A DNA stretch of 64,000 nucleotides from Cylindrotheca closterium (taxonomy: Eukaryota; Bacillariophyta; Bacillariophyceae; Bacillariales; Bacillariaceae). The stretch spans positions 168,120-232,119 of the forward strand of contig CAKOGP040001446.1 of the NCBI GenBank assembly GCA_933822405.4. The letters run 5' to 3'. This document shows positions 2,955 through 53,900 of the stretch, one piece after another. Both the position numbers and the translations under genes were made by a program. Within the stretch, counting starts at the first letter, position 1. Every line of letters starts with the position of its first letter. The notes under the pieces were generated by a model that worked only from the letters and a program-made list of their open reading frames with translations, ran no database searches and was not told the DNA's origin.

Positions 2955-5006
2955 ATGATGGTGGACGAGGAAGTACAAGAGCCCAAGATCAAGACCAAGA
3001 CCAAGATTAAGGTCAGGAGCAACCCGAAGAAGATTAACAGAACAATTGTTGATCCCACTGGCTTCCATGTTGCCGAAGTTCATCATGCAATTGGTAAGAA
3101 GGGAGTAAATCGAAACATCGAAGCAGCATGGATGGCACCACGCGATCACTCGGTCTTTGAATTCCGAAACATCAACTACATTGTTGGTGAGGGAAAGGCA
3201 CAAAAACCAATTCTTACCAATGTCAGTGGGCGAGTTTCTGATGGATCCACAGTGGCCATTCTGGGGCCTTCTGGCGCTGGAAAGACCTCTTTGCTGATGG
3301 CTCTTTCATTGGGAATTACCTCTGGAAAAGTGACAGGAAGCATCGAGTTGAACGGAAAGGCGCTCACAAACCAGAGCTTCAAAGATCACTGTTTCCTGGT
3401 TGAGCAATCTGATCATCACTGGTCGTTCTTGAGCTGTTTGGAAACCCTAATGTATGCAGCATCTTTGCTGCTTGGTCCCGGAAATCACTCCGCTGTTGTT
3501 GATAGTATCATTGAAAAGATGGGGCTTCAATCCTGCAAAGACACTAAGGTTGGCAACGACTTTGTGCAAGGTTTGAGTGGAGGACAAAAGAGAAGGCTTT
3601 CGATCGCCATTGCGTTGTTGAAGAAACCTGCAGTGATCATGTTGGACGAGCCAACCTCTGGTTTGGACTCTGCTGCGTCTGTTGCCATCGTGAGTGAACT
3701 GAGAAAGTTGGCCAAGACCGAGAACTTGATTGTAATCATGACGATTCATCAACCCTCGACAAAAGTCTATAACGACTTTGATCAAGTCATGTGAGTTGGA
3801 CGTTTGGTATGTTGCAATACTGATCATATGGCTGACGTCAAACACTACTCGTTTTCATTATTTAGTCTCATGGCACGGGGCCGACAAGCCTTCATTGGAG
3901 AAGCAGCGGCCGCACATGACTACTTTGAAACCATTGGACATCCAATGGTGCACATGACTAACCCTGCTGAATTTCTCGTGGATCTAGTCAATTCTGACTT
4001 TACCAGCGAAGATTCCGTTCTCTCGATTCTGGACGAATGGAAACAACACACTTCTGAGACGCATAGGAGCAAGAATGAAACCTTGGTGGTTGGCTCAAAC
4101 GACGACTTTCACCAGCTGATCAAACGAAAAAAGAGCTTTCTGCACGAATTGTCAACAATCTTTGGCCGACATGCACTATTGGTTGCAAGGGATCCCATTC
4201 TCTACGTAGGACGCATTGTGTTACTATTGATCTCGAACACTATATTTGCCCTGGCCTATTGGAGCTCTCGGGAGAAGGTTCAGGCACAAGCGATCAACTT
4301 CTACTACGCCAATGCCTGGCCCATCTCACTTGGCTCAATGTTCGCCGTTGTGGCAGTGTTTGGATTGAATGCCGAATTCAAGTCTGTTATTCGCGAAGTC
4401 AAGAATGGTATGATCAATCCATTGACTTACATCATAGCGAAGACGGTTCTGGTCTTGCCCGTGATGCTGTTGTTTGGTGCCGCAGCCATCAGTACTGGTG
4501 TCTATGCGATCTTGGGACTCAAGGCAAACTACGGGATCTATCTGGTTCTCTATGCTATTAGCATGTTTGTCTTCGAATGCATCGCCGAGGTTCTCTCTGT
4601 CGCTTTTATCAATCCGCTGATGGGTATGCTATGCTTTCTGTCGATCTGGTTCACCTCCTTTTTGTTTGGGGGAACCTTTTTGCCGCCAGATGATCTTTCA
4701 GTAGTGATTCGGTGGCTCTACCATGCCATGCCACTGTCCTACACCTTCAATGCCATTTCTTATCACGTATTTTCAGGCGAGGACTGGCCCAGTTGTGTTC
4801 CTGATGCAAACACTGGAGCTGTCTGTGTTGAATTTGATGAGTCACCAGATGAAGCGCCAATCGCTTTGATTCTCGAATCACTTTCGAAGATCATACCAAA
4901 TGTATCTGGGGATGACAATCGTGTGGAAGCCATGGCCATTATATTGGGCATGGCCCTTGGTTACAAAATTCTGTACGTCGCAATCTTTTTGTTTAAGTCC
5001 TCATAG
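2955..5006 (+). CDS. ABCG-type half-transporter, copy 2, two exons
   Basis: Second ABCG half-transporter of the array, spliced from exons 2955-3790 and 3866-5006 (1977 coding bases, 658 residues). The 75-bp intron 3791-3865 starts GTGAGT and ends TTTAG. Splicing restores DQVILMARG where the intronless copies read DQVMLMSKG, which supports the junction. Walker A is at residues 104-112, followed by the same LSGGQ, Walker B and IHQPS motifs as copy 1, then a six-helix ABC2 membrane domain. The membrane half is closest to copy 1 (both have LFGGTFLPPDD). Without splicing, a stop follows DQVM and the protein would lack its membrane domain. Substrate unknown. Confidence 0.92.
3791..3865 (+). other. 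Intron of ABCG copy 2
   Basis: 75-bp GT-AG intron (GTGAGT donor, TTTAG acceptor) placed just after the H-loop region of the ATPase domain. Copies 1 and 3 read straight through the same site. TCATG occurs at both exon edges, which could be a trace of an insertion event. Confidence 0.85.
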
Positions 5007-5467
5007 GGCAGCAAGCTTCCTTCAAGAACCATTTTGAACGATACGTCACACGGGAGTTTGAACATACTCGATGATTCATTCATTCATCATGCATTTTTAT
5101 TTCCATATTATAGAATATAATAATAGCCACAATAATTTTAAGCATCTCTTCGACGTTGGTTCATACTCTTGGTTGGTTAGAGCAAAGTGGGTCTGCGCTG
5201 TTTGCGCGCATATCTAGATTACCCCTCCGGAATGCGTACAGTGCACCAGTACGTCACACACAAAATCCAGCACATTCTCGCAATTCGCTGACGAAGCTGG
5301 TCGCGGAGCGCTTCCGTTAAGTATAAAATGAACACCATTGTGCCTTTTTATTCCGGTGCCAGTATGAGTCATGTGAGGAAATTACCTCAAGAATACTGAA
5401 GTGTGCGGTAGGTAGAACATTGCAACGTGGTGAAATCAAATGAGCGAAACAGACCTACCGTATATTA
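5007..5467. other. Spacer between ABCG copies 2 and 3
   Basis: About 460 bp without a recognisable gene. It contains a short ATTC-rich stretch near 5071-5090 and AT-rich sequence near 5105-5130 that could serve 3' end formation of copy 2. No other structure was recognised. Confidence 0.45.
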
Positions 5468-5485
5468 ATGAAAGGAGATATCATC

Positions 5486-7447
5486 ATGGCGGAAGAAGAA
5501 CTAGAAGTAACCATTTTGGAGCCCAAGCTCAAGCGCAAGAGTAAGAGAAAAAGCAAGAAAAGCGAAAGTGAAAGCAAAAGAGGGAGCGTTGATCCCGCTG
5601 GTGTCCATGTTTCTGAAGTGGACCATCTGATTGATACAGCATGGATGACTCCACGCGATCACTCAGTCTTTGAATTCAGAGACATTAACTACATTATCGG
5701 TAAGGGAAAGAAAGAAAAGCAGATCCTTACCAATGTTAATGGGCGAATTTCCGATGGATCCACCGTGGCCATTCTGGGACCTTCTGGTGCCGGAAAGACG
5801 TCTCTGCTGAAGGCTCTTTCGTTGGGGATCACGTCTGGGAAAGCGACTGGAATTATTGAATTGAACGGAAAGAAGCTGACAAACCAGGGCTTTAAGGATC
5901 ACTGTTTCCTGGTTGAGCAATATGATCACCACTGGTCGTTCTTAACCTGTAAGGAAACCCTAATGTATGCGGCATCTTTGCTACTTGGTCCCGGAAATCA
6001 TACTTCGGTGGTGGAGAACATTATTGACAAGATGGGGCTTCAATCTTGCAAAGATACCAAGATTGGTAATGACTTTGTGCAAGGTCTTAGTGGAGGACAA
6101 AAGCGAAGGCTTTCAATCGCCATTGCTTTGCTGAAGAAACCGGCTGTGATTATGCTCGACGAACCAACCTCCGGTTTGGATTCGGCAGCATCCGTTGCGA
6201 TTGTGGGCGAACTGAGAAAGTTGGCCAAGAGCGAAAATTTGATTGTTATCATGACGATTCACCAACCCTCGACAAAGGTCTACAATGACTTTGATCAAGT
6301 CATGTTGATGTCCAAGGGTCGACAAGCCTACATGGGAAAGGCAGCATCTGCACATGAGTACTTTGAAACCATTGGATACCCAATGATGCAGATGACCAAT
6401 CCTGCTGACTTTTTGGTGGATCTAGTCAATGCTGACTTTACTAGTGAAGACTCTGTACTTTCCATTCTGGACGAATGGGAGCATCGCACTTCCAAGATCC
6501 AAATGAATAACGATCAGAAGATGGTTGTGGACTCTGATGATGATGACTTTCATCAGCTGATGAGAAGGAAAAAGAGCTTTCTGCACGAATTGAACGTTCT
6601 CTTCCGACGACACGCAGTTTTGATAGCCCGAGATCCCATTCTCTACGTCGGACGTATTGTGGTGCTTCTGATCTTCTGTACCATTTTTGCTTTGGCTTAT
6701 TGGAGCTCTCGTGACAAGGTGCAAGCACAAGCTATCAACTTCTACTACGCCAATTCCTGGCCGATTTCGCTCGGCTCGATGTTCGCTGTAGTTGCAGTAT
6801 TCGCATTGAATGCTGAATTCAAGTCCGTCATGCGAGAAGTCAAGAACGGTATGATCCATCCGGTGACGTATATCACGGCCAAATCCATACTGGTGTTGCC
6901 AGTGATGCTACTGTTTGCTGTAGCTGCCCTCAGTACTGGTGTCTACTCCATTCTGGGAATCAAAGCAAACTACGCGACCTACGCCGGTATGTTTGCTATC
7001 AGCATTTTCGTTTTTGAATGCATTGCAGAGGTTCTTTCCGTCGCCTTTATCAATCCGCTTTTGGGTATGTTATGCTACCTGTCGGTTTGGTTTACCGCCT
7101 TTTTGTTCGCTGGAACTTTTCTACCGGCGGACGACCTCCCAGGTGTCATTCGGTGGATCTACTATGCGATGCCACTTGCCTACACCTTTGATGCCTTCTC
7201 TTACCACGTTTTTTCCAGCGAGGATTGGCCCAGTTGTATTCCTGATGAGAATGCTGGGGCCGTGTGTGTTGATTTCAGTCAGGTGCAAGGGGAAGAACCG
7301 AGCACCTTGATTCTCCAAGTACTTTCCAAGATCGTCCCAAATGTAACTGGAGAAGACAATCGCATGGAAGCTATGGGTATTATATTGGGAATGGCACTTG
7401 CTTACAAGCTTCTATATGTCACAATATTTTTGTTCAAGTCCTCATAA
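5486..7447 (+). CDS. ABCG-type half-transporter, copy 3
   Basis: Third ABCG half-transporter, single exon. Two in-frame ATGs exist, at 5468 and 5486. I choose 5486 (653 residues) because the context GATATCATC-ATGGCGGAAGAAGAA aligns with the starts of copies 1 and 2; the upstream one would give 659. All ABC motifs are present (GPSGAGKTS, LSGGQKRR, VIMLDEP, IHQPS). The membrane domain is the most divergent of the three, with LFAGTFLPADDLPG instead of LFGGTFLPPDDLSV, so substrate preference may differ. Part of the ATPase domain is nearly identical in DNA to copy 1, as if converted. Substrate unknown. Confidence 0.92.
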   Translation: MAEEELEVTILEPKLKRKSKRKSKKSESESKRGSVDPAGVHVSEVDHLIDTAWMTPRDHSVFEFRDINYIIGKGKKEKQILTNVNGRISDGSTVAILGPSGAGKTSLLKALSLGITSGKATGIIELNGKKLTNQGFKDHCFLVEQYDHHWSFLTCKETLMYAASLLLGPGNHTSVVENIIDKMGLQSCKDTKIGNDFVQGLSGGQKRRLSIAIALLKKPAVIMLDEPTSGLDSAASVAIVGELRKLAKSENLIVIMTIHQPSTKVYNDFDQVMLMSKGRQAYMGKAASAHEYFETIGYPMMQMTNPADFLVDLVNADFTSEDSVLSILDEWEHRTSKIQMNNDQKMVVDSDDDDFHQLMRRKKSFLHELNVLFRRHAVLIARDPILYVGRIVVLLIFCTIFALAYWSSRDKVQAQAINFYYANSWPISLGSMFAVVAVFALNAEFKSVMREVKNGMIHPVTYITAKSILVLPVMLLFAVAALSTGVYSILGIKANYATYAGMFAISIFVFECIAEVLSVAFINPLLGMLCYLSVWFTAFLFAGTFLPADDLPGVIRWIYYAMPLAYTFDAFSYHVFSSEDWPSCIPDENAGAVCVDFSQVQGEEPSTLILQVLSKIVPNVTGEDNRMEAMGIILGMALAYKLLYVTIFLFKSS

Positions 7448-11401: not shown

Positions 11402-12864
11402 ATGCAAGCAAACGAAGAAACAGAAGATCAGAAACTGTTACGACTGGCTTCCAGCTGGGACGGTTTTGTTGGAAGACATCGTGAAAGCGATGGGACACTT
11501 CCTGGTTGGAAAGAATGGTCGAGTAGGCACAAACAGAGAGTCGAAATGGTGCAAGTATGTCGGGGTCGGAAACAGTGGAGGAAGCAAATGCGGAGGCGTC
11601 AACGAAGTGATTTGACGCTATCCATAGTGTCTTGGAATGTTCTGTCCGATACATGGCTTAACTTTGGGCGAGTAGGATATGAACATACTCCTGTTGAGCT
11701 CAAATCAGATTGGTCCAAACGGATTGCCCTCTTGATGCAATGGGTCGAGGACCTCCAGCCGGATGTCCTCTGCTTTCAAGAAGTGGATTATGAAAAATTT
11801 GTTGAAAATAGGGATACCACTTTGAAAGGACCTTTTCTGTTGACGGAATTGTCCAAGAAGTTTGGCTACCAAGGAGTGATTCAAAAACCGAAACGAGGCA
11901 AGAAAGATGATCAGCCTTGTGGGGTTGCCACTTTATGGAAAGACGATCAGTTTGAATTGATCAAGGAGAAATCTTTTTCACGGACGCAGTGTGTAGTACT
12001 GAACCGTCGTTCTTCGTTTAGTACTTTTTGTCTGGTAAATCTTCATTTGGAATCTCAACAAAGCGCTGCGGGGAGTGACAAACGGGCGCGGCAGCTGAAT
12101 TCAGTCTTGTCGCATGTCGCGAGAGAAGCACCAGGGATATCCTTTNNNNNNNNNNTAGTACTTTTTGTCTGGTAAATCTTCATTTGGAATCTCAACAAAG
12201 CGCTGCGGGGAGTGACAAACGGGCGCGGCAGCTGAATTCAGTCTTGTCGCATGTCGCGAGAGAAGCACCAGGGATATCCTTTGTCCTCGCTGGAGACTTT
12301 AATACTGGATCCGACAATGCCATCTTCAAGGTTCTTCGGGATCACGAGTGGCACGGCCATGCCATGAGTTCTGTCTACGAACATCCCAGGACCAGAAAGA
12401 CTCTGCCAGCGTGTCACGCTACATATATGCAACCTGGATCCCATTATTCGATTGACCACATTCTTTACACTCATTCGTCTCTACGAATGAAATGTGTCCT
12501 GGACGCTTTGGATCCACAAGAGAAACAAGAACATGTGCTCGAAAATGGCATGGCAAGCGGGTTTCCAACGATGTTTTGTCCGTCGGATCACATTCCAATT
12601 GGAGTCATATTCGAGTTTACACCGCCCAATCTAGACAGTGATGGTGCTGCAAGGATACCGCTGAAAGAACTGATGGAAGGTCGGAAAGAAGAGCTGCGAG
12701 CCCAATGGAAGGCATTACAGGCCCAAAAACCGACTTTTACAAAGGGCAAACCCCCTCCAGAAGAGATTGAAAAACGGAGAAGATACGCAAGCGCTGTGAA
12801 AGCGTGGAAAGCTAGTGTTCCGAAGGAAAACACACAGGAGATAGACTTCATAGCTCAATTGTAA
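11402..12864 (+). CDS. Endonuclease/exonuclease/phosphatase-fold protein, split by assembly gap
   Basis: A protein of the EEP superfamily closest in style to the CCR4/nocturnin/PDE12/Angel group, which removes poly(A) or cleaves related phosphodiesters. Visible motifs are SWNVLSDTWLN, the catalytic glutamate in CFQEVDY, GDFNTGSDN, and the terminal SDHIPIG. A 10-N gap at 12146-12155 interrupts it, but the 127 bases before the gap are repeated exactly after it. Counting the duplicate once leaves one frame (11402-12145 continuing at 12283) of 441 residues, so the break is almost certainly an assembly artefact. The last 70 residues are charged and lie outside the catalytic domain. There is no obvious transit peptide. 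The substrate is not determined. Confidence 0.85.
12146..12155. other. Assembly gap (10 N) flanked by 127-bp exact duplication
   Basis: Ten N bases. Positions 12019-12145 and 12156-12282 are identical over 127 bp. This is the signature of two contigs that overlap by one assembler word length and were joined without merging. No real sequence need be missing. Confidence 0.93.
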
Positions 12865-23750: not shown

Positions 23751-24516
23751 GTTGTTTGGATATGTTTTTGTGTCGTGTTATTGAGTTTTGTTGTGTTATT
23801 GTGTCGTGTCGTGTTGTTTTATATATTTGAATGAATGAATGCAATCAATCAATCAATCAATCAATCGTTGGCGATCGGGAAGCAGGTGAACAGTGTCAGC
23901 TGATTCGTTTTCGTGCACAGTACGATGGTTCTTTTCTTTCGTGCCTTCTGCTACCTAGCTAGTACTGTACTGTGGCGATGGAACTGGTGGTGTCACGACG
24001 AGAACTTTGACGGAGTAGAATAACTGCCAGATGATTCGCATCAGTGTTTTTTATGGTTTCAATAATGTAGGTACTTTGAACTTGTACGAATGAATGGTTT
24101 TGTGACACCTGATTGGAAGCATTTCGAAGGCAGGGGATGGAATACATTTGATTCATTTGACTTGATTGACCCACCCGATCAGTCAGTTTGCCTCAAGAAG
24201 TCTCATTTTGTTGATTTTCAAGATATGATATTTCAATTATTGAGACTGCATGTCATCGCATGCAAAGCGCTATCTTATTGGGTCCCATCATCAATGAGAA
24301 TATTGTTGTTAAAGACAGCAGTATCATCAATAATACCCAAAATAACATCACAAGCCACATACAAAGCAGTATCATTACCATGTCTTCTTCTCCTTCTTCC
24401 GTTCAATTGACCATTCGTCACGGATCCATCTTGGAATNNNNNNNNNNAAAGACAGCAGTATCATCAATAATACCCAAAATAACATCACAAGCCACATACA
24501 AAGCAGTATCATTACC
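23751..24516. other. Spacer containing microsatellite and unmerged duplicate
   Basis: About 765 bp between divergent genes (PSMD9 minus, macrodomain plus), so it holds both promoters. It contains GTGTTATTGTGTCGTGT-type low-complexity sequence near 23770-23820 and an AATC/GAAT microsatellite near 23829-23866. It also holds the 10-N gap at 24438-24447, whose left flank (24311-24437) duplicates the start of the next gene. No additional gene seen. Confidence 0.6.
24438..24447. other. Assembly gap (10 N) flanked by 127-bp exact duplication
   Basis: Positions 24311-24437 and 24448-24574 are identical over 127 bp, the same length as at the other gap. The duplicate includes the macrodomain gene's ATG (24380 left, 24517 right). 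This is an unmerged contig overlap, not a biological tandem duplication. Confidence 0.93.
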
Positions 24517-33443: not shown

Positions 33444-35104
33444 TCACTCGTCCATGTCTGCAGAAACGACAGTGTGGACGGACCCGTCCATCAATACGAT
33501 TGATGAACTTCGTTCAGGAGATTCCTTCGGATCAGCTTGATGATCGTTACCGTCGACCACTGACCGTCTTGAATCCTTCCCTTCCTTTGACTCGGTCGTA
33601 CTATCAGGTGCAGAAAGATTGCCTGAGGTGATAGCACCTTCTTCACTCTTAGCGGTCTGTGATGTCGTCCTCCTTTCCACCTTTCTGGTGCCCCCCTTCA
33701 GCGGTACTGGTTCGTTGGCTCTGTTGCTACAGTCCTCAGGATCACCAAAGATGGCATGTCGAAAACACCATAGCTTGGACTCGGAAGGAAAGCTCGTTCG
33801 AAGCCTCAAGTAGGAAGGTCTCAGAAAGACAAACATGTTCACCCATCCTTGAAGCGGATAGAGCATAGCTTGTAGTACCAAGAAAGGAAAGGTTGTGACT
33901 GGCAGCTCTTTGAGGCCAATACCAGAGCCGACAATTACTTCCCTTCCTCGAAGCGAATAGGCTATAACATTACAAAGGAGAAAACCGCCTACAAACAAGA
34001 AAGCTTGTGTTCTGAGTTTCTGCAATTTCTCTTGATGTTGCTTCTGTGTTTCTTCAAGTCGCTGGAAAGCTCCTTGAGATGGACTCCTTTCAGCATTCTT
34101 CTTCTTCGATGACCCATTGGTGCCTGCACTCTGCTCGGTGGCATCTAGGTACGCGTTTCTTGCAAACGAAAGTCGCTCTTTGTGAGCCTGCACATGCTTC
34201 CGAACATACGCCCAAATCCGAACGTTATTGACAATCATCGAAACAAGACAAGAAAAAATCATTGTCGCCCCAAACACGACATTATAGAGTATACCTTTAC
34301 ATGGTTCTCCTGTGCCATCTGGACCGCAGTTCTCTGGAATATCGATTTTGATCCAACAGCCCATATTTACTGTTGATGCATCATAATGATTAAAATACCA
34401 CACTATACAAACGACACAATTTCTGCTTCAGCAACGACTTACTTTTACGTTCGCCATAAAAGCCCCAGTACAAAGCTGCATAGGCACTCAGCATCGGCCA
34501 GCCCAAACAGACCACATGCATTGAAGTTTCAAACTTTCTCGCAATGTCACTGTCACTATACTTGAATCTGGTTGTCAACAGAAAGTAGAAGCTCAACATG
34601 GTCTGGTAAAGCATAGCGGCAGGACCGCTGAATTGGTTGAAGAATCCGATGGCATCGCATGAGGCTTATTGCGAAAGGAAATGCATAAGTTAGTATTGTG
34701 TAGAGGAGCAAGCAGCAACTTCTGGAAGAGGTGTTCGCGATTCTTAGTCCCTGATCGTCCAACGACGAGGGACTTCTTCTTTCCGTCTGAGATGGTTGAT
34801 GAGACGCACCTTCGTTGCCAAAAGCCCAGAATCGACTTGATGTTTCCCTTGGATATAGAAAGCTTCCTACTGCCAGATTAACAGAGAAGATAATATTGCA
34901 GATGGACATTCCTGTCAGCAATCCATGGTATGGAGTCCAGTGTGTTTTCTGGCGAGACTTGAACGCCATAGTGATGATGACAACACTTCCAAATATGCTT
35001 AGAATAGCCGACGGTATCGGTAGGATTACAAGAAGCGTCTCTTGTTTTTCAGACAACTGACGAATATCCATGTTAGTGTCTTCATATGCATCCTGATACT
35101 CCAT
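33444..35104 (-). CDS. Seven-transmembrane receptor A (GPCR-like), three exons
   Basis: A 480-residue predicted seven-transmembrane receptor, spliced from exons 35104-34810, 34664-34443 and 34369-33444 (1443 bases). Introns are 145 bp (GTGCGT...AATAAG) and 73 bp (GTAAGT...CAACAG). Splicing gives GNEASCDAIGFF and GERKINMGCW, matching paralogue C. TM1 is LLVILPIPSAILSIFGSVV, TM2 covers HGLLTGMSICNIIFSV, and TM7 lies near AMLYPLQGWVNMFVFLRP. The long third cytoplasmic loop is glutamine/lysine-rich. The cytoplasmic tail is Ser/Thr-rich and acidic. The layout recalls slime-mould cAMP-type and secretin-related receptors seen in diatoms. Ligand unknown. The retroelement sits in its upstream region. 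Confidence 0.8.
34665..34809 (-). other. Intron 1 of receptor A
   Basis: 145-bp GT-AG intron, highly similar in sequence to intron 1 of receptor B (42786-42931) and absent from receptor C at the same codon. Confidence 0.85.
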
Positions 35105-35439: not shown

Positions 35440-35632
35440 CAAATAAAGGTGACTGTGCTATAGGATGCGAGACGCGCAGTAGTAAGGATAAATTGGCTGC
35501 TTACGAAAGCTGTCGATGAACGATGAACACACTCTTTCTAAGAATACGTTTGATTGCAATATTGTCTACCGTCTATCATAGCTACTACTTCGTAAGCCAA
35601 CAACATCGTAACGTTGTAACGATAATATTTAT
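35440..35632 (+). repeat. 5' LTR
   Basis: 193 bp, starting CAAATAAAGGTGACTGTG and ending GATAATATTTAT. It matches the 3' LTR except for two substitutions and absence of a 39-bp segment. Ends are set by where the two copies stop matching, so they may be off by a few bases. Confidence 0.9.
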
Positions 35633-35635
35633 TGT

Positions 35636-35651
35636 TTATCAGATCCAGCAA
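35636..35651 (+). promoter_or_regulatory. Possible primer-binding site
   Basis: TTTATCAGATCCAGCA lies immediately after the 5' LTR and resembles the initiator-tRNA-Met primer-binding sites (TATCAGA core) of many copia elements. The match was judged by eye. Confidence 0.45.
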
Positions 35652-35763
35652 TAACTGCCGAAAGTTATTCAACGAACAAAAATGAAAATGAAATGAAAAT
35701 GAAAATGAAAAAATGAAAATCACAACGACAACGACAACGGCATCGAGCGTACTACGAACGCTA

Positions 35764-36194
35764 TGATGGGTGACACAACACCAATGGAAAATGTTGTGAT
35801 GGGTGCCGCAACACCAACGCAAACTGCTTTGATGGGTGCTGCAACACCAACGAAAACTGCTTTGATGGGTGCTGCAACACCAACGAAAACTGCTTTGATG
35901 GGTGCTGCAACACCAACGAAAACTGCTTTGATGGGTGCTGCAACACCAACGAAAACTGCTTTGATAGGTGCCGCAACACCAACAAAAACTGCTTTGATGG
36001 GTGCTGCAACACCAACGAAAACTGCTTTGATAGGTGCCGCAACACCAACAAAAAACTGCTTTGATGGGTGCTGCAACACCAACGAAAACTGCTTTGATGG
36101 GTGCCGCAACACCAACAAAAACTGCTTTGGTGGGTGCCGCAACACCAACAAAAACTGCTTTGATGGGTGCTACAACACCAACAAAAACTGTAGC
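35764..36194 (+). repeat. 33-bp minisatellite in gag leader
   Basis: About 13 head-to-tail copies of a 33-bp unit (core GATGGGTGCTGCAACACCAA), with the first and last copies diverged. The period is a multiple of three, and on the plus strand the unit encodes the 11-residue peptide MGAATPTKTAL. One extra A in the ninth unit (about 36050) shifts the frame, so the open frame that enters Gag is the one opening at about 36034. Confidence 0.93.
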
Positions 36195-37330
36195 CTTTAA
36201 CACACTGAAAACAAAAACTTTAACCAACAATACGATGTATGACATTGATATAGGCAACATGGCCGCCATTCCTCCTCTCTTCACTGTTCATGACAATATG
36301 GTCATCTGTGGTATTAACGATGCAACCCTATTCCAAGGATGTACGCAAGCTGAGAGAATTGCTCATGAAATATTCTCTGACAATTTTAGCACTACAATGG
36401 ATGTATCTATCGACAAACTCAACGATGAACTCAAAACCCTAGCAGGAATGACTGCTGCACAAGGGCAAATTCGATTATGCCTGGCATCAAGAAAAATATC
36501 CCCACCTTCATCCAATGGTGCAGAGACGAATTCCGCATGAGACGGGACCCAGCAACAGTACCATTCCCAGTCACTGATGCAGCCCAACTCCTTCGACGCA
36601 TGAAAACACACGAGCAATATGTATATGGCTCCAAGTTGATGTCACAACAGGCACTAGCTCAAGACTTCACCAACAATGTCCAATGGGAGGATTGGCACCC
36701 AACGTTTGTAAACTACCCCCGTACCATACCAGGAAGAGATGGAGTCCCGCTCCAATATGTAGTCCGAACGAACAAGCATCAGTTCCGACATACCACGAAG
36801 ACTTCCTAGAGATGTACATCCAAATGGCACCACTCAATGGCGAAGCCTTTACAATTGACAACACCAAAGTTTTAGTCCTCTTGAGAAAATTTACCGTGGG
36901 CAATACCGAGGCCGAGGCGACACTACAAGCCATTGATGTCAAAGGCAAGGGAAGGGATGCATTTATCGCCCTACGCACCCACTACGAAGGTGAAGGACTC
37001 CTAGCCCACCTATGCTACGTGGGAGAAAAGCCTACAATGAACTGGGCCATGTTTGAACGCATGCTGAAGGAAGCATACGCAGCATACGACAAACATGAGG
37101 GGAGAGTAGTACATTTGGTGGCAATGAAACTACGTAACCTGCAAACCAAGGTTACCACATCCTTTCTACAACTGAACAAGACGGCGATTGATACGGAAAT
37201 TGTCGAACGGCCAATGGTGATGAATTTCACAACGGCATTACAAATCTACCGAACTGCAGTAAGGGAAAATTTTCCCAAGGAAACAACAATGCCACTGACA
37301 GGGACAACACTTGGGCGAAGCTCGAGCTAG
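36034..37330 (+). pseudogene. Gag polyprotein remnant of the copia element
   Basis: Remains of the retroelement Gag in three frames. The first piece (36034-36540) carries MGAATPTKTAL repeats then a Gag N-terminus (VHDNMVICGINDATLFQG). The second (about 36477-36809) has QWCRDEFRMRRDPATVPF, VTDAAQLLRRMKTH and IPGRDGVPLQYV. The third (about 36770-37330) has VPTYHEDFLEMYI to MVMNFTTALQIYR. At least two frameshifts break it. A basic, asparagine-rich stretch follows (37311-37553). Identification as Gag rests on the position before the protease and similarity in style to CoDi Gag. Confidence 0.75.
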
Positions 37331-37809
37331 TAACGATAGGAACAGGCAAAACGACAACAGGAGCAGGATCCAAAACGGAGGAGGAAAAAACAGACACCGA
37401 GACAAAGAAGAGATTACCCTGAGCAATGGGGAGAAGATCTGGTTATCACTTCCCTTGGGATCAGCTACGGGCGTGTCAACTGAAAGGGCTGCACATCGTG
37501 CACGTCAGGGAATGCCGGCAAGACAAACGCAACAGACTACCACGGAAGCATAACTGTCTGAGGCTGTTGAAACGGGAGAATCAGCTGCACGGATATCACA
37601 AGTGACGATGGGGACTGGTGGAAGTTCCGTAATGGGCGGACGCAACCAACAGGCAAGCGGTTGCAACCAACAGGCAGGTGGATTGTCACCATGATCCACG
37701 GTAGGTGAGGTCAGACGAATTGTGCGAGTGATCTCATCCAACACAGCCGCATCCCAACAACCGGTACAACAACCAACACCAGGAACCAGGAACGCTGGCG
37801 AGCAATGAA

Positions 37810-40800
37810 ATGGACACTAATGCCGACACTAGTTGCCTTGGCAAGAACTTCGTGATCATGAGTTACACACCAAGATCAGCAGATGTATATGCATATGACC
37901 CAGCGTTACCACCGACGAACGTTCCTATCGTGTCGGGAGCAACTGCTTTTGATTGTCCACAGACTGGTAATACGTTCATCATGATAATTAACGAAGCACT
38001 CTACTATGGGAACCGATTGGACCATTCGCTAATAAATCCAAACCAGGTACAAAGTTTCGGAATTCCCCTATGGGATAACCCTTTTGACGAAACAAGACAT
38101 GTTGGTATTGAATCCAAAAATATATTCATAGCATTAAAGGCAAAAGGCACAAAGTTACTTTTTGATTCAAGGGCACCAACTGAACAAGACCTTGCAACCT
38201 GTCTCCACGTCGATATGACAAGCAAGGTGCCGTGGAACCCAGGAACTGTCCAACTTGGTAAGGTCTCAGCAGCCCACGAAGACACTGAGGACCATGTAGA
38301 CAATCCGAGATCCAACGAGGCAGAACTGAGACAATTGGATCCCATAATGCAAGGGATGAACACGAACTATTCAAGGTATTCTGATGGAAGAGTGCCATTG
38401 GAAGTGATCACTGGCATCACACCCGACATAATGGAGTACATGGACTTTACTATCTACGGATGGGTATACTATCGCACGGATGGTGCCTTAGGGGCAAATG
38501 AGATTGGTAGGTGGTTGGGAATGTCACACCAAACGGGTCCAATGATGACGTATTGGATATTATCAATGAGTGGCCGCCCAATCTCTACTGACACCGTTCA
38601 AAACATCATGGAAGCCAAAAAGCAAACAGACGTTATGGTGTTTTCAACATGCCATCTTTGGTGATCCTGAGGACTGTAGCAACAGAGCCAGCGAACCAGT
38701 ACCGCTGAAGGGGGGCACCAGAAAGGTGGAAAGGAGGACGACATCACAGACCGCTAAGATGTATCCAAAGTTCTTGATGCAAAAACAGGAGACATCAGTT
38801 GGGGGAAGAATGAAATACCGCCACAATTGATGTTTGACCTTGAATTGGAAGATGCTGAATTCAAATGCAGTTTCAACAAGTTGATCGAGGCTGAGAACGT
38901 TGATGATGGCATGCTCCAGGGGACTACGGAAACAGACGACATCAACACACAAAACTATGTCAACATGGAAATTGGTTTAAGGCGAGGCCAAGAAGGGGAA
39001 CTACAGCGTGCCCTTGTACGTAGGCAAATTGTTGATGCAGAAGGAAGCCCAATCGGTGTGGCAAGCAACAACCAGTTACTAGACACAAGGCAATACGAAG
39101 TCGAATATGAAGACGGAGGCACCGAGATATTCTCCGCAAATTTACTAGCAGAAAGCCTACTGGCGCAAGTGGATGAACATGGCCACAAACACTTACTGAT
39201 GGAAGAGATCACAGAACACCGTTCTAACAAAAAAGCAGTAAAGAAACAAGACGGTTTTTATAGCTTGAAGAGAGGAACGCAACGAAGACGACATACTACA
39301 GCAGGTTGGGACCTTTATGTCACTTGGAAAGATGGTTCCTCGAACTGGATACCTTTGAAAGACATGAAAGAGTCCTTCCCAATTGAAGTAGCAGACTATG
39401 CAATAAGCAAGGACATTCAAGACAAACCCGCCTTTGCATGGTGGGTACCACACGTTGTTCGAAAACGCACACAATTCCTTGGCAAAGTCAAATCAAAGTA
39501 CTGGGAACGTACGCACAAGTATGGGATACGTATACCAAAATCAATCAGAGAAGCCATCAAAATCGACAAAGAGAATGGGGACACCCTATGGCAGGATTCC
39601 ATCCAAATGGAAATGAAGAACAATCGAATAGCCTTTGAAGAATTTGATGGAGACGTAGAGAAGCTGATGGGATACAAGAAAATCACGGGACACTTGGTAT
39701 TTGATGTGAAATTGGGAGAAAACTTCCGAAGGAAAGCCAGGTACTGCGCTGACGGACACAAGACTGGAGCACCGGCAGCATTGACCTACAGTACTGTAGT
39801 ATCTTGTGATTCAGTTCGGATACTACTCATGATAGCAGTGCTAAACGGATTAGACTTGCAGTGTGCGGACATACAGAACGCTTTCCTCACTGCACCAGCA
39901 ATCGAAAAGTGCTACATGGTAGCAGGACCCGAGTTTGGGGACAAAGAAGGCAAAGTTTTCATTGTAAGAAGGGCATTATATGGTCTAAAAGGATCATCAG
40001 CGGCATTCAGGTCACATCTGGCAGAGACATTGGAGGAATTGGGCTTCTGGTCATCCACTGCCGATCCTGATGTTTGGATGAGAGCTGCTGTTAAACCTGA
40101 TGGGGAGGAGTATTATGAATACATCCTATGTTACGTTGATGACATACTATGTATGTCAATGAAACCATTGGAATGTTACGATGGGCGATTGGACAAGTTG
40201 ACATCTTATTGGAAGTATCACTACTAAGCCAATATCAAGCAGTGCCAAGGGAAGGGCATACCGGTATGAAACAAGCATTGAGGATATTTGCTTTCTTGGA
40301 TACGTTTCCAAAGTTGACCTTGTACTATGATTATAGGGCGCCAAACTTCCAGGAATATTGCCGAGACGCAAAAGAGGAAATGCCGCACAACGCACCCAAG
40401 CCAAGGGGACGAAGCGTAGGGAGTACCGCATGGGTAGATGCTTCTCACGGTGCTAACAAGAAGACACGAAAATCACATACGGGTTACGTGATCTTCCTCA
40501 ATCAAGCTCCCATATTATGGCACAGCAAAAGGCAGAACACGGTAGAAGCGAGCACTTTTGGTTCGGAGTTTATCGCCTTGAAAGCATGAATTGAGGCCAT
40601 CACACATTTGAGATTCAAGTTGAAAATGTTTGGAATCCCTTTGGAGAATGAACCAACACACATATTTTGCGACAATGAGAGCGTGGAGACAAATGCAACA
40701 AAGGTCAAATCGACCTTGAACAAGAAGCACAATTCCATAGCATACCATTATACGAGATGGAACGTGGCTCCTGGAGTTGTCGATGTATCATGGACGCCAG

Positions 40801-40883
40801 GAATGTTAAACCTCGCTGATGTCTTCACGAAGCTATTGACCCTGGAAAGACGGGGACGCCTGTATGGCGAATGGACGTACTAG
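37810..40883 (+). pseudogene. Pol polyprotein remnant (protease, integrase tail, RT, RNase H)
   Basis: The aspartic protease motif DTNADTSCLG begins near 37813. At 38325-38630 is the integrase C-terminal region (VITGITPDIMEYMDF, EIGRWLGMSHQTG); the integrase catalytic core that should precede it is absent. A 126-bp host insert with stops follows (38634-38759). RT resumes in the original frame from about 38761, with AKTGDISWGKNE readable, then the copia RT with NAFLTAP and YVDDIL (about 40132). The thumb is deleted near 40150 with a frame change. RNase H runs 40149-40880 with WHSKRQNTVEASTFGSEF, interrupted by TGA at 40587, and ends in ADVFTKLL. Not functional. Confidence 0.88.
38634..38759 (+). 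other. Captured 126-bp fragment of receptor gene B
   Basis: Identical at 125 of 126 positions to the reverse complement of 41768-41893, the exon 3 coding sequence of receptor B. The one difference is G to A at 38646. It carries the B-specific AGCCAGCGAACC (Ser) rather than the A version AGCCAACGAACC (Asn). It is in the receptor sense orientation on the element's plus strand. In another frame it still encodes HAIFGDPEDCSNRASEPVP. In the Pol frame it introduces stops. Confidence 0.95.
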
Positions 40884-40921
40884 TCATATTATCGAACTGA
40901 ATTCCATCGTTGGTATCCAGC

Positions 40922-40930
40922 TTGAGGGGA
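40922..40930 (+). promoter_or_regulatory. Polypurine tract
   Basis: TTGAGGGGA immediately precedes the 3' LTR, the expected place for the plus-strand priming tract of an LTR retrotransposon. Confidence 0.6.
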
Positions 40931-40931
40931 C

Positions 40932-41163
40932 CAAATAAAGGTGACTGTGCTATAGGATGCGAGACGCGCAGTACTGATGCGAACGTGTGCGATTGTAAGC
41001 GGTCTGTGAGTAGTAAGGATAAATTGGCTGCTTACAAAAGCTGTCGATGAACAATGAACACACTCTTTCTAAGAATACGTTTGATTGCAATATTGTCTAC
41101 CGTCTATCATAGCTACTACTTCGTAAGCCAACAACATCGTAACGTTGTAACGATAATATTTAT
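40932..41163 (+). repeat. 3' LTR
   Basis: 232 bp, equal to the 193-bp 5' LTR plus a 39-bp segment (40970-41008) bounded by AGTA on both sides. There are two G-to-A differences (GCTTACG versus GCTTACA; GAACG versus GAACA). Confidence 0.9.
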
Positions 41164-41570
41164 ATTTATATGGCTGTGGAAATAAAGCCATTTCACTGCT
41201 GTGTACTTGTAAATTGGAGAACTCTATGATATCGCGCTCGCAAAATGCAACATTGGTTGCCACAGAATAGTGTTCTATTCTTCCGACCCAACCACCTCCA
41301 ACCCAGCTGAGTAGACATCCACTGGAGTAGAGGACACTGAGAGATGCCCCTACTCGTACAAGCACAAATGGCAAGGGCGCTGGCACTTCACGTGGACTGA
41401 TAGGTCAGTCCCATTTATCATAACTGCTGAGGCAGGAGTTTGCTTCTACGCCAAGGTTTTCGCTGTTTCTGTCAGCAGGAATCAACATTTCCATGGTTCG
41501 ATTGCTGGATTAACAAGAATTACTTGATTTTTGACTCGAAATCATCCTTTCAAAACTCAATATGTGATCA
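41164..41570. other. 3' flank of receptor B
   Basis: About 405 bp between the 3' LTR and the receptor B stop. It is related to the region downstream of receptor C (about 43430-43580), for example GTAAATTGGAGA and TGCAACATTGGTTG. It therefore belongs to the ancestral duplicated receptor unit. No gene. Confidence 0.6.
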
Positions 41571-43226
41571 CTAGTCCATATCTGCAGACCTGACAGTGTG
41601 GACGGACCCGTCCATCATTACAATTGATGAACTTCGTTCAGGAGATTCCTTCGGATCAGCTTGATGATCGTTCCCGTCAACCGCTGACCGTCTTGAATCC
41701 TTCCCTTCCTTTGACTCGGTCGTATCGGATGCAGAAAGATTGCCTGAGGTGATAGCACCTTCTTCACTCTTAGCGGTCTGTGATGTCGTCCTCCTTTCCA
41801 CCTTTCTGGTGCCCCCCTTCAGCGGTACTGGTTCGCTGGCTCTGTTGCTACAGTCCTCAGGATCACCAAAGATGGCATGTCGAAAACACCATAGCTTGGA
41901 CTCGGAAGGAAAGCTCATTCGAAGCCTCAAGTAGGAAGGTCTCAGAAAGACAAACATGTTCACCCATCCTTGAAGCGGATAGAGCATAGCTTGTAGTACC
42001 AAGAAAGGAAAGGTTGTGACTGGCAGCTCTTTGAGGTCAATACCAGATCCAACAATTGCTTCCCTTGCTCGAAGCGCATAGGCTATAACATTACAAAGGA
42101 GAAAACCGCCTACAAACAAGAAAGCTTGTGTTCTGAGTTTCTGCAATTTCTCTTGATGTTGCTTCTGTGTTTCTTCAAGTCGCTGGAAAGCTCCTTGAGA
42201 TGGACTCCTTTCAGCATTCTTCTTCTTCGATGACCCATTGGTGCCTGCACTCTGCTCGGTGGCATCTAGGTACGCGTTTCTTGCAAACGAAAGTCGCTCT
42301 TTGTGAGCCTGCACATGCTTCCGAACATACGCCCAAATCCGAACGTTATTGACAATCATCGAAACAAGACAAGAAAAAATCATTGTCGCCCCAAACACGA
42401 CATTATAGAGTATACCTTTACATGGTTCTCCTGTGCCATCTGGACCGCAGTTCTCTGGAATATCGATTTTGATCCAACAGCCCATATTTACTGTTGATGC
42501 ATCATAATGATTAAAATACCACACTATACAAACGACACAATTTCTGCTTCAGCAACGACTTACTTTTACGTTCGCCATAGAAGCCCCAGTACAAAGCTGC
42601 ATAGGCACTCAGCATCGGCCAGCCCAAACAGACCACATGCATTGAAGTTTCAAACTTTCTCGCAATGTCACTGTCACTATACTTGAATCTGGTTGTCAAT
42701 AGAAAGTAGAAGCTCAACATGGTCTGGTAAAGCATAGCGGCAGGACCGCTGAATTGGTTGAAGAATCCGATGGCATCGCATGAGGCTTCATTGCGAAAGG
42801 AAATGCATAAGTTAGTATCATGCAGAGGAGCAAGCAGCAACTTCTGGAAGAGGTGTTCGCGATTCTTAGTCCCTGATCGTCCAACGACAAGGAACTTCTT
42901 TTCGTCTGAGAAGACGGTTAATTCGACGCACCTTCGTTGCCAAAAGCCCAGAATCGACTTGATGTTTCCCTTGGATATAGAAAGCTTCCTACTGCCAGAT
43001 TAACAGAGAAGATAATATCGAAAATGGACATTCCTGTCAGCAATCCATGGTATGGAGTCCAGTGTGTTTTCCGGCGAGACTTGAACGCCATTGTGATGAT
43101 GACAACACTTCCAAATATGCTTAGAATAGCCGACGGTATCGGTAGGATTACAAGAAGCGTCTCTTGTTTTTCAGACAACTGACGAAAATCCATGTTACTG
43201 TCTTCATATGCATCCTGATACTCCAT
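41571..43226 (-). CDS. Seven-transmembrane receptor B (GPCR-like), three exons
   Basis: A 478-residue receptor nearly identical to A, spliced from exons 43226-42932, 42785-42564 and 42490-41571 (1437 bases) with introns of 146 and 73 bp. It shows the same seven hydrophobic segments, the same Cys-rich second extracellular loop (GCWIKIDIPENCGPDGTGEPC) split over about residues 174-195, and the same glutamine/lysine-rich loop and acidic Ser/Thr tail. Even the introns align closely with A, so the A/B duplication is recent. Its exon 3 is the best source for the fragment captured in the retroelement. Ligand and G-protein partner unknown. Confidence 0.8.
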
Positions 43227-50993: not shown

Positions 50994-53900
50994 CTAGCTT
51001 TGCATTTCGGCAGCTTGTTCGTCATCGTCGTCTAGTACTACTTCTTCTCCTTCTGTTGCAACAGTAGCAACATTGCTGGAAAGATTTTGGCCACTCTTCT
51101 TGTTGTCATCGTCACCACCCGCATAGAGTTTGGATATTTGCTCAAATATCTTTTTTCCCAACACCTTTCGCTCTGCTCGATGCAGCTTGGCAAACAGTTG
51201 CAAGTTGGATCGTAATTGTGCGGTTTGGACCTTGCGTTCTTCTTCGCCATCCTCGGAACGCCCCAGCGATTTCAAAATCATTTGGGAGACTTGCTTGGCC
51301 ATTTTGTAACGTGCTGGTTTGGTCCTTCCATTGGTCATGATCAACAATTGACTCAAGATGGTTCGCTGGGTCTTACTACTAGGGACTTTGTGCAACACCA
51401 AGCAGAATTCGTCCCACTCGACATCAAATGAAGAGACTGAAGTGAAGAGTGAATTGTGTTAGAATCGCAAAAGGAAAACAACAATGGCAATGGCAGCCCA
51501 ACTATGCTTTTGCTTACCATGGCTCAAGGTTTGGATCGTATGGTCCGCGCTATCTTCCAGGCTTCGTCGTCGTTTGGGGCGATTCCTTCGTTCTGGACTC
51601 ACATTGGATGCTACTACAGTACATTCATCGTTGTCAACATAGTACAAGGATTCCAAAGAAGAGACGGTACGTTTGTGCATTACAAATGGTTGCGACAACG
51701 ATGATGGATCCCCTATAGTAGCAGTCTTTCTCCCTTCTGGATCGTCGTATCCGTCTTCGTCATCCAAATCGGAGGAACCAGTGGTGCGGAATTCCGCAAG
51801 GGTCACAGAATTGGGATCCACCTGTGGTGATGTTCGGAACTGACCAAAGGAAATCATGTCAAAGGGATTTTCAGCAGTAGATCGCTGTTGTTTTGTGCTA
51901 TTATCGTCTTCTTGTGTTTCTCCACTGCTCAAGTCAACCAAAAGATCCTGTCCTGAAATGAAAATGTCATCTTCGTCATCGTTGTCTAGTGACTCTTCAC
52001 CTTCGTCGGTGTCATCCTCACTGTTGTTGTCAAAGGAATCAAGGTCTTCGCTATTCTCCTCTTGAATAAAACCAGGCTCAAATTCGTGCTCGTTGTTTTC
52101 TTCCCCAACCCCCTTTGTGTTGCGGTCCATTTCCTCCTGACTAGCGGCAAACGAAACAGGATCGACACTATTCTCGTCTTGGATGGAACGTGGCGCCAAG
52201 TCTTCTTTGTTCTCGTGGTCCTCCTCCTTCGTGTTGTCCATGTCATCCTCATCGTTGTTGTCACCACCGAAGGAATCAATCCTTTCGTGGATCAAACGAG
52301 GCTTCGATTGGTCTTTATTTTCTTCGTCGTCCTCCTTTGTACCGCCCGTGTCCTCATTGCCAGCAAACGAAAGAAGATCTTCACTGATATCTTCGGAATC
52401 AAAGGATGGCTTCAATAATAACAGCTCTCTTTTGCTATCGGACACGTGAAAGGAATCGTCGCATTCATCGTGAGGTAGAGGGGCCGATAGAAGGGTCGTG
52501 GGAGGCGATGATACTGCAGAACTAGATTTGTATTCAAGCATACTCTCCTCCTCGCTCATCGATGTGGTGGGTATAGTGTCAACGTCGTCGGCATCCAAAC
52601 CCTCGGAAGAGTCTTCCGAAGGGCTTTTAACAATAAAGTCCGTGGATTCTTCTTCCACCGCGGTGTTTGGTTCAGCTGCTGCTGGCTCAATATTGTTGTC
52701 GTCGTACACGTCAGGCAGATTCTGAGGACCCACACTTTCATCATTTGCAACGGACTCCGGTGCTACACTTTCATCGTTCGAGGCAGCATCAGGTCCGGAC
52801 TCCCCCTTCACCACCAGTTCCTCCACAGCACGATTGTTACTTGGAAGAGTCTGGTCCTCACCCGGGGCATGGTCCAGGGTAGCTGCTAGCGCAATAGCTT
52901 TGTCGTTCATACTCTCCAGACTCGGACTTTGGGTATTCGTATCAGCGTCAGTTGTGGGGGCGTCGGTCTCGCAGACTTCTGGTTCTTCAGAAGGGACTGG
53001 GCTATCCATCTCAACAACTTTGTCGCTTACATGCTCTAGACTCGAAGTTGCGTTGTTCATATCAGCGTTGGTGGAATTGGTGTCAGCATCACAGACTTCT
53101 GGTTCCTGGGGACGAGGAGGGCTATCAATGGAAACAGTTGCTTTAATGGGACTTTTTTCTTCACTAGTCGCGGCTGCGACATCAGCCTCATCAGGATCCT
53201 GTTCGGAACTCGACTGCTTATCATCCGTGCCATGATTGAGTGACGACTCCTTTGCCAACACATCTTCTTCTTCTTCTTCTTTCGAGGCGGCATCAGTCTC
53301 AAACGCGTCTGCCAAAATCGATTCGGAGTTCTGAAAGTTCTCGTCTTGTTCTGGTTCTTTGTCTATTGTTGTTTCTTGAATAGTAGCTGCATCCACGACT
53401 GTGTAGTTATTTTCTTCAGTATCAACACTCTCTTCCTTTTCTTCTCCGTCAGTCGAGCTCTGACGGCTCTCCTCTTGTTCTAGTTCTTTGTCCATTGATG
53501 TTTCTTGAATAATAGCTGCATCCACGACTGTGCAGTTATTTTCTTCAGTATCAACACTCTCTTCCTTTTCTTCTCCGTCAGTCGAGTTCTGCAAGTTCTC
53601 GTCTTGTTCCGGTTCGTCGTCCATTGATGTTTCTTGAATAGTAGCTGCATCCACGACTGTGCAGTTATTCTCTTCAGTATCAACACCCTCTTCCTTTTCC
53701 TCTCCGTCAATCGAGCTGTGACTAGCTGATTCAACTATATTAATATTGTGTTGATCCAAGTCTTGGAAAATCTTAGATGCTTTCGTCGATTCTGTCGTCT
53801 TGTCAGAAGGCAAGACATAGGGTTTTTGTTGATACTGCGGTTGCTGCTCCTGTTGAATGATTTGATGGACTGCAACTGCCAGCCCAATGGGTGCACCCAG

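Follow-up and report, generated by a model that had tools for sequence, protein, structure and literature searches.

The Pol region of a Ty1/copia-type LTR retrotransposon in the diatom Cylindrotheca closterium contains a piece of exon 3 of a receptor gene, in receptor sense, at a site where sibling copies of the element have 31 bp of element sequence. As judged from the sequences compared below, it most likely adds one more example to a known type of event, namely, templated repair filler from a neighboring gene in a broken retrotransposon. The element lies in the window, by which we mean the whole 64,000-nucleotide stretch of DNA analyzed here (contig CAKOGP040001446.1, positions 168,120 to 232,119), and the wider searches were run over the 47.6-Mb assembly, which comprises 572 contigs. 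The features needed for the argument are as follows, in window coordinates.

33444..35104 (-), receptor A, tandem paralogue of receptor B
35440..41165 (+), Ty1/copia-type LTR retrotransposon, a rearranged copy between receptors A and B, recognized by its LTR pair, RVT_2 and sibling copies
35440..35632 (+), 5' LTR, lacking 41 bp present in the 3' LTR, with AGTA at the deletion ends
38362..38364 (38361^38365) (+), deletion scar containing 3 unmatched bases, where siblings have about 700 to 710 bp more
38634..38759 (+), receptor B exon 3 fragment in receptor sense, of which 38634-38757 substitute for 31 bp of the element
38662..38664 (+), first of four fragment-borne stops in the Pol frame
40165..40166 (40164^40167) (+), deletion scar containing 2 unmatched bases, where siblings have about 290 to 300 bp more
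40932..41165 (+), 3' LTR, about 234 bp
41571..43226 (-), receptor B, three coding blocks, matching Cylindrotheca closterium protein P0001
41768..41893 (-), donor stretch in receptor B exon 3, assigned by sequence match

The receptors and the host element

Three receptor genes, A, B, and C, form a tandem row on the minus strand. Exon 3 of receptor B has 305 residues identical to P0001, and both coding blocks of receptor C are 100% identical to the Cylindrotheca closterium protein P0005; the Pfam 7tm_1 profile scored 30.1 bits against P0001, slightly below its cutoff of 30.5. Over 1830 aligned bases, receptors A and B are 95% identical. When 41884-42765 was compared with the corresponding part of receptor A, the divergence proved to be uneven, with only 2 of 630 bases differing in 42136-42765 but 14 and 20 differences per 126 bases toward the two ends of the gene, a pattern suggestive of either a recent gene conversion or strong constraint. 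A 1-bp indel that at first seemed to disrupt receptor A lies in an intron, directly before the exon 2 acceptor, and receptor A is therefore not considered broken by it. A literature search on diatom receptors gave no papers.

Between receptors A and B, two LTRs enclose an RVT_2-type reverse transcriptase (63.9 bits; E value of 2.2e-17), the arrangement of a Ty1/copia LTR retrotransposon, so that the receptor fragment does lie inside a copia-type element, as the first-pass annotation had it. The LTR edges were fixed against 18 LTR loci from other parts of the assembly, of which two are truncated by contig ends. In the A-T-rich flanks, a target site duplication, TATAT, can be read only if each side is shifted by one base, and it is ambiguous. 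The open reading frame at 37810-38661, on the expected integrase side, gave zero Pfam matches at E values up to 1, and this is the region that has lost about 700 bp. A minisatellite with a 33-base unit (35760-36190) lies within the element's 5' part and is present in siblings too. Elsewhere in the window are tandemly repeated units of about 129 bases, 90 to 91% alike (53326-53722), and a 669-base direct duplicate with 85% identity (3124-3792 and 5637-6305).

Replacement of 31 bp by receptor sequence

The fragment and the reverse complement of 41768-41893 are identical at 125 of 126 positions, and a BLAST search of 38501-38900 against the window recovered the match to receptor B with an E value of 1.7e-60, which bears out the match given in the first-pass annotation. 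The longest exact match between fragment and receptor B is 113 bp. Receptor A (33647-33772) matches at 124 of 126 positions, and two sites are variable among the three. At 38646 the element has A, where both receptors have G. At 38691 the element and receptor B have G and receptor A has A, in agreement with the earlier claim that a base separating B from A is present in the fragment. The residue at this site is Ser in receptor B and Asn in both receptor A and the nearest outgroup protein, P0002; the three more distant outgroup sequences (P0003, Glu; P0004, Lys; P0005, Lys) do not settle the matter. The Ser of receptor B thus looks derived and common to the fragment, which points to receptor B as the likely donor on the strength of the single site 38691. 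Used as the sole query against the assembly, the fragment was found at three places, namely, itself, receptor A, and receptor B. Together, fragment and donor make up a 126-bp inverted repeat with its arms some 3 kb from each other, and the near edge of the donor (41768) is 603 bp from the 3' end of the element (41165).

Sibling copies reveal what was lost. All nine siblings readable on both sides (C138, C508, C370, C557, C540, C509, C47, C132, and C469) have 31 bp of element sequence at the site, against 124 bp of receptor sequence plus 2 shared bases in this copy, a net change of +93 bp (31 codons). The 31-bp spacing was read as sequence in five of the nine and from coordinates in four, and in C509 and C132 it is obtained only with unaligned edge bases counted. 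In sibling C156 a deletion runs across the site; C144, C422, C350, and C24 match its right side only. At the left joint no base is common with the receptor, and at the right joint GA (38758-38759) is common to element and receptor. At the sequence level, these alignments show the replacement of 31 bp, its donor, and its joints.

It had been proposed that the length of the fragment, 42 codons, leaves the Pol flanks in frame. The flanks are indeed in the same frame, but the event replaced 31 bp for a net gain of 31 codons, and it brought in four in-frame stops, at 38662 (TGA), 38668 (TGA), 38677 (TAG), and 38755 (TAA), the first of them ending the Pol frame 29 bases into the insert. Because the insert contains these stops, the shared frame of the flanks is without coding effect, and on its reading frame the fragment has no coding role in Pol.

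Origin of the fragment

We consider the fragment to be probably filler templated on adjacent DNA, by way of break repair or a replication template switch. In the proposed order of events, the element would first have inserted between receptors A and B, and a break or stalled replication fork in its Pol region would then have cost it 31 bases. One broken end may have primed DNA synthesis on receptor B by 2 bp of homology (GA), with a polymerase presumably copying about 124 bases before the new end was joined to the opposite side without homology. The outcome would be a copy-and-paste templated filler, inverted with respect to a donor 3 kb off. The features seen are those of templated insertions: the donor is intact, the joints have little or no homology, and bases were lost at the acceptor. 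Donors a few kilobases away are favored in repair. In the available portion of PMC11724301, most break repair insertions in yeast and humans are about 50 to 300 bp with 0 to 20 nucleotides of microhomology, and "local" donors on the same chromosome are recognized for them. Against the repair reading, the same portion gives about 5 to 34 bp for most local foldback inversions, with a maximum of about 150 bp, and 2 to 35 bp for local Alt-EJ insertions; beside these mostly short sizes, a strictly local event of 124 bp would be a long one. The median of 2 bp (range, 0 to 4) that it gives for break end homology applies, moreover, to complex insertions in yeast mutants.

This copy has been damaged elsewhere as well, which supports repair. 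It holds two further deletions, one closed with 3 unmatched bases and the other with 2, and the AGTA-flanked 41-bp deletion in its 5' LTR necessarily followed insertion, because a fresh insertion has both of its LTRs copied from a single template (according to the part of PMC13317346 at hand). The absence of the fragment from the assembly except at itself and receptors A and B is a further point in favor of repair.

The first-pass annotation had named both repair and an RNA route and had favored the latter, which leaves the adjacency of the donor, at 603 bp, unexplained. By that route, reverse transcriptase would have switched from the element RNA to a copackaged receptor B mRNA and back, skipping 31 nucleotides, and the chimera would have inserted beside receptor B. 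Minus-strand synthesis would be expected to exit the element RNA at the position of the GA joint, and plant LTR elements do capture host sequence, an example in the accessible text of PMC13317346 being Bs1. The receptor-sense orientation, an even chance under repair, suits the mRNA route equally well. Yet the chimera would have had to land by chance 603 bp from its own donor, or else under a strong local preference; if insertion is assumed to be uniform, the chance is 2.5e-5 within 603 bp on either side and 4.2e-4 within 10 kb, and even given a hundredfold local preference the mRNA route falls well behind. Neither an exon-exon joint nor poly-A is present in the fragment. The lack of the former follows from the location of the fragment within a single exon, and as no intron is spanned, it does not exclude an mRNA origin. 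The assembly-wide check for other copies with the insert that had been suggested earlier found none, which falls on the side of local repair but is weak evidence against the mRNA route, because the closest copies by internal sequence (C437, C101, and C156), plus C331, are without the site and because stops in Pol would hinder the spread of any copy that has them. Divergence dating does not separate the two routes. The LTR pair differs at 2 of 155 aligned bases, both CG versus CA, and the single private change in the fragment (1 of 126) is likewise CG to CA; per CpG the two divergences are alike (Fisher P value of 0.54), so that fragment and insertion may be of the same age, as the mRNA route would have it. 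Methylation of elements is known in diatoms, and the CG-to-CA changes would fit decay of a methylated element. Overall, we regard the mRNA route as unlikely.

An assembler or gap-filling step might also have placed receptor sequence in the element. The window has two 10-N gaps (12146-12155 and 24438-24447), each with identical 127-bp repeats on both sides, as expected if a de Bruijn assembler was run at k = 127, and the length of the receptor match, 126 bp, is similar. At these gaps contigs were apparently joined with the k-mer overlap left unmerged, and the 127-bp duplicates there are probably artifacts. Two further 10-N gaps, in sibling regions, are not flanked by identical 127-bp repeats; near a 10-N gap (4993-5002) in the C555 sibling region (L038), we noted a 109-base repeat, 99% identical (4863-4971 and 5443-5551). 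An artifactual fragment is nevertheless quite improbable, given that the base at 38646 is found in neither receptor, that the longest exact match to receptor B, 113 bp, is shorter than k, that an artifact would require errors at both element-receptor joints, and that the assembly yielded no contig in which this copy runs on uninterrupted. Still another source would be a loose piece of receptor B DNA, either a genomic fragment or cDNA, captured at a break by end joining. The near-blunt joints of the fragment would suit such an event, and capture of extrachromosomal DNA at breaks is among the insertion mechanisms proposed in the part of PMC11724301 available, but a loose piece, cDNA above all, is not bound to the adjacent gene, which makes this origin very doubtful.

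Comparable systems and meaning

Within the sibling stretches traced, templated filling appears not to be a habit of the family. In 17 sibling regions we scanned for stretches of at least 25 bp that match no other compared copy and traced three internal ones, in C469, C101, and C350, in the assembly; most of the other stretches lay at the ends of regions or past a point of truncation, and C509 also contributed to them. Those of C469 and C101 are repeats, with 94 and 83 assembly matches, respectively, and the C350 stretch recurs at a single further locus, C496, a truncated element that has an LTR of its own. None of the three is a second filler from a single-copy gene, and within the traced stretches the receptor filler looks like one event.

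The filler resembles the templated double-strand break insertions of yeast and humans, as presented in the excerpt of PMC11724301, in being copy-and-paste, within the 50- to 300-bp range, with an intact donor, 0 to 2 bp at the joints, and bases lost at the break. Unlike them, it is a fossil in a diatom retrotransposon, known from sequence alone, and it is longer than most of the local inverted events described there. With maize Bs1 (PMC13317346) and the rice and sorghum sets (PMC3726574), again as far as the available parts of these papers go, it shares a host gene fragment in sense orientation between LTRs; it differs from these captures in that the donor is adjacent, the copy is single, no intron was removed, and stops lie in Pol. 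RNA template switching in Veju and BARE-2 likewise joined foreign sequence within an LTR element, whereas these variants, in the same part of PMC13317346, are multicopy or a new class and the fragment here is single and next to its donor. A literature search, judged by titles and abstract openings, yielded no report of retrotransposon-captured gene fragments in diatoms.

With respect to function, the scar could conceivably act as a local silencing locus for receptors A and B via small RNAs. A rightward transcript running past the 3' LTR into receptor B would carry receptor sense and antisense sequence and could fold as a long hairpin, feeding small RNAs against both receptors. This is a long shot, drawn from the layout of the repeats. 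Were the mRNA route true, we would be looking at a recent capture of a receptor fragment by a diatom copia element. More broadly, host sequence between two LTRs is readily counted as retrotransposon gene capture. In the accessible part of PMC3726574, any gene inside a full-length LTR element is defined as captured, and 672 such genes were counted in rice and 1,343 in sorghum. Since the distance to the donor, the lost element bases, and the readable siblings favor repair in the present case, capture counts can include repair scars.
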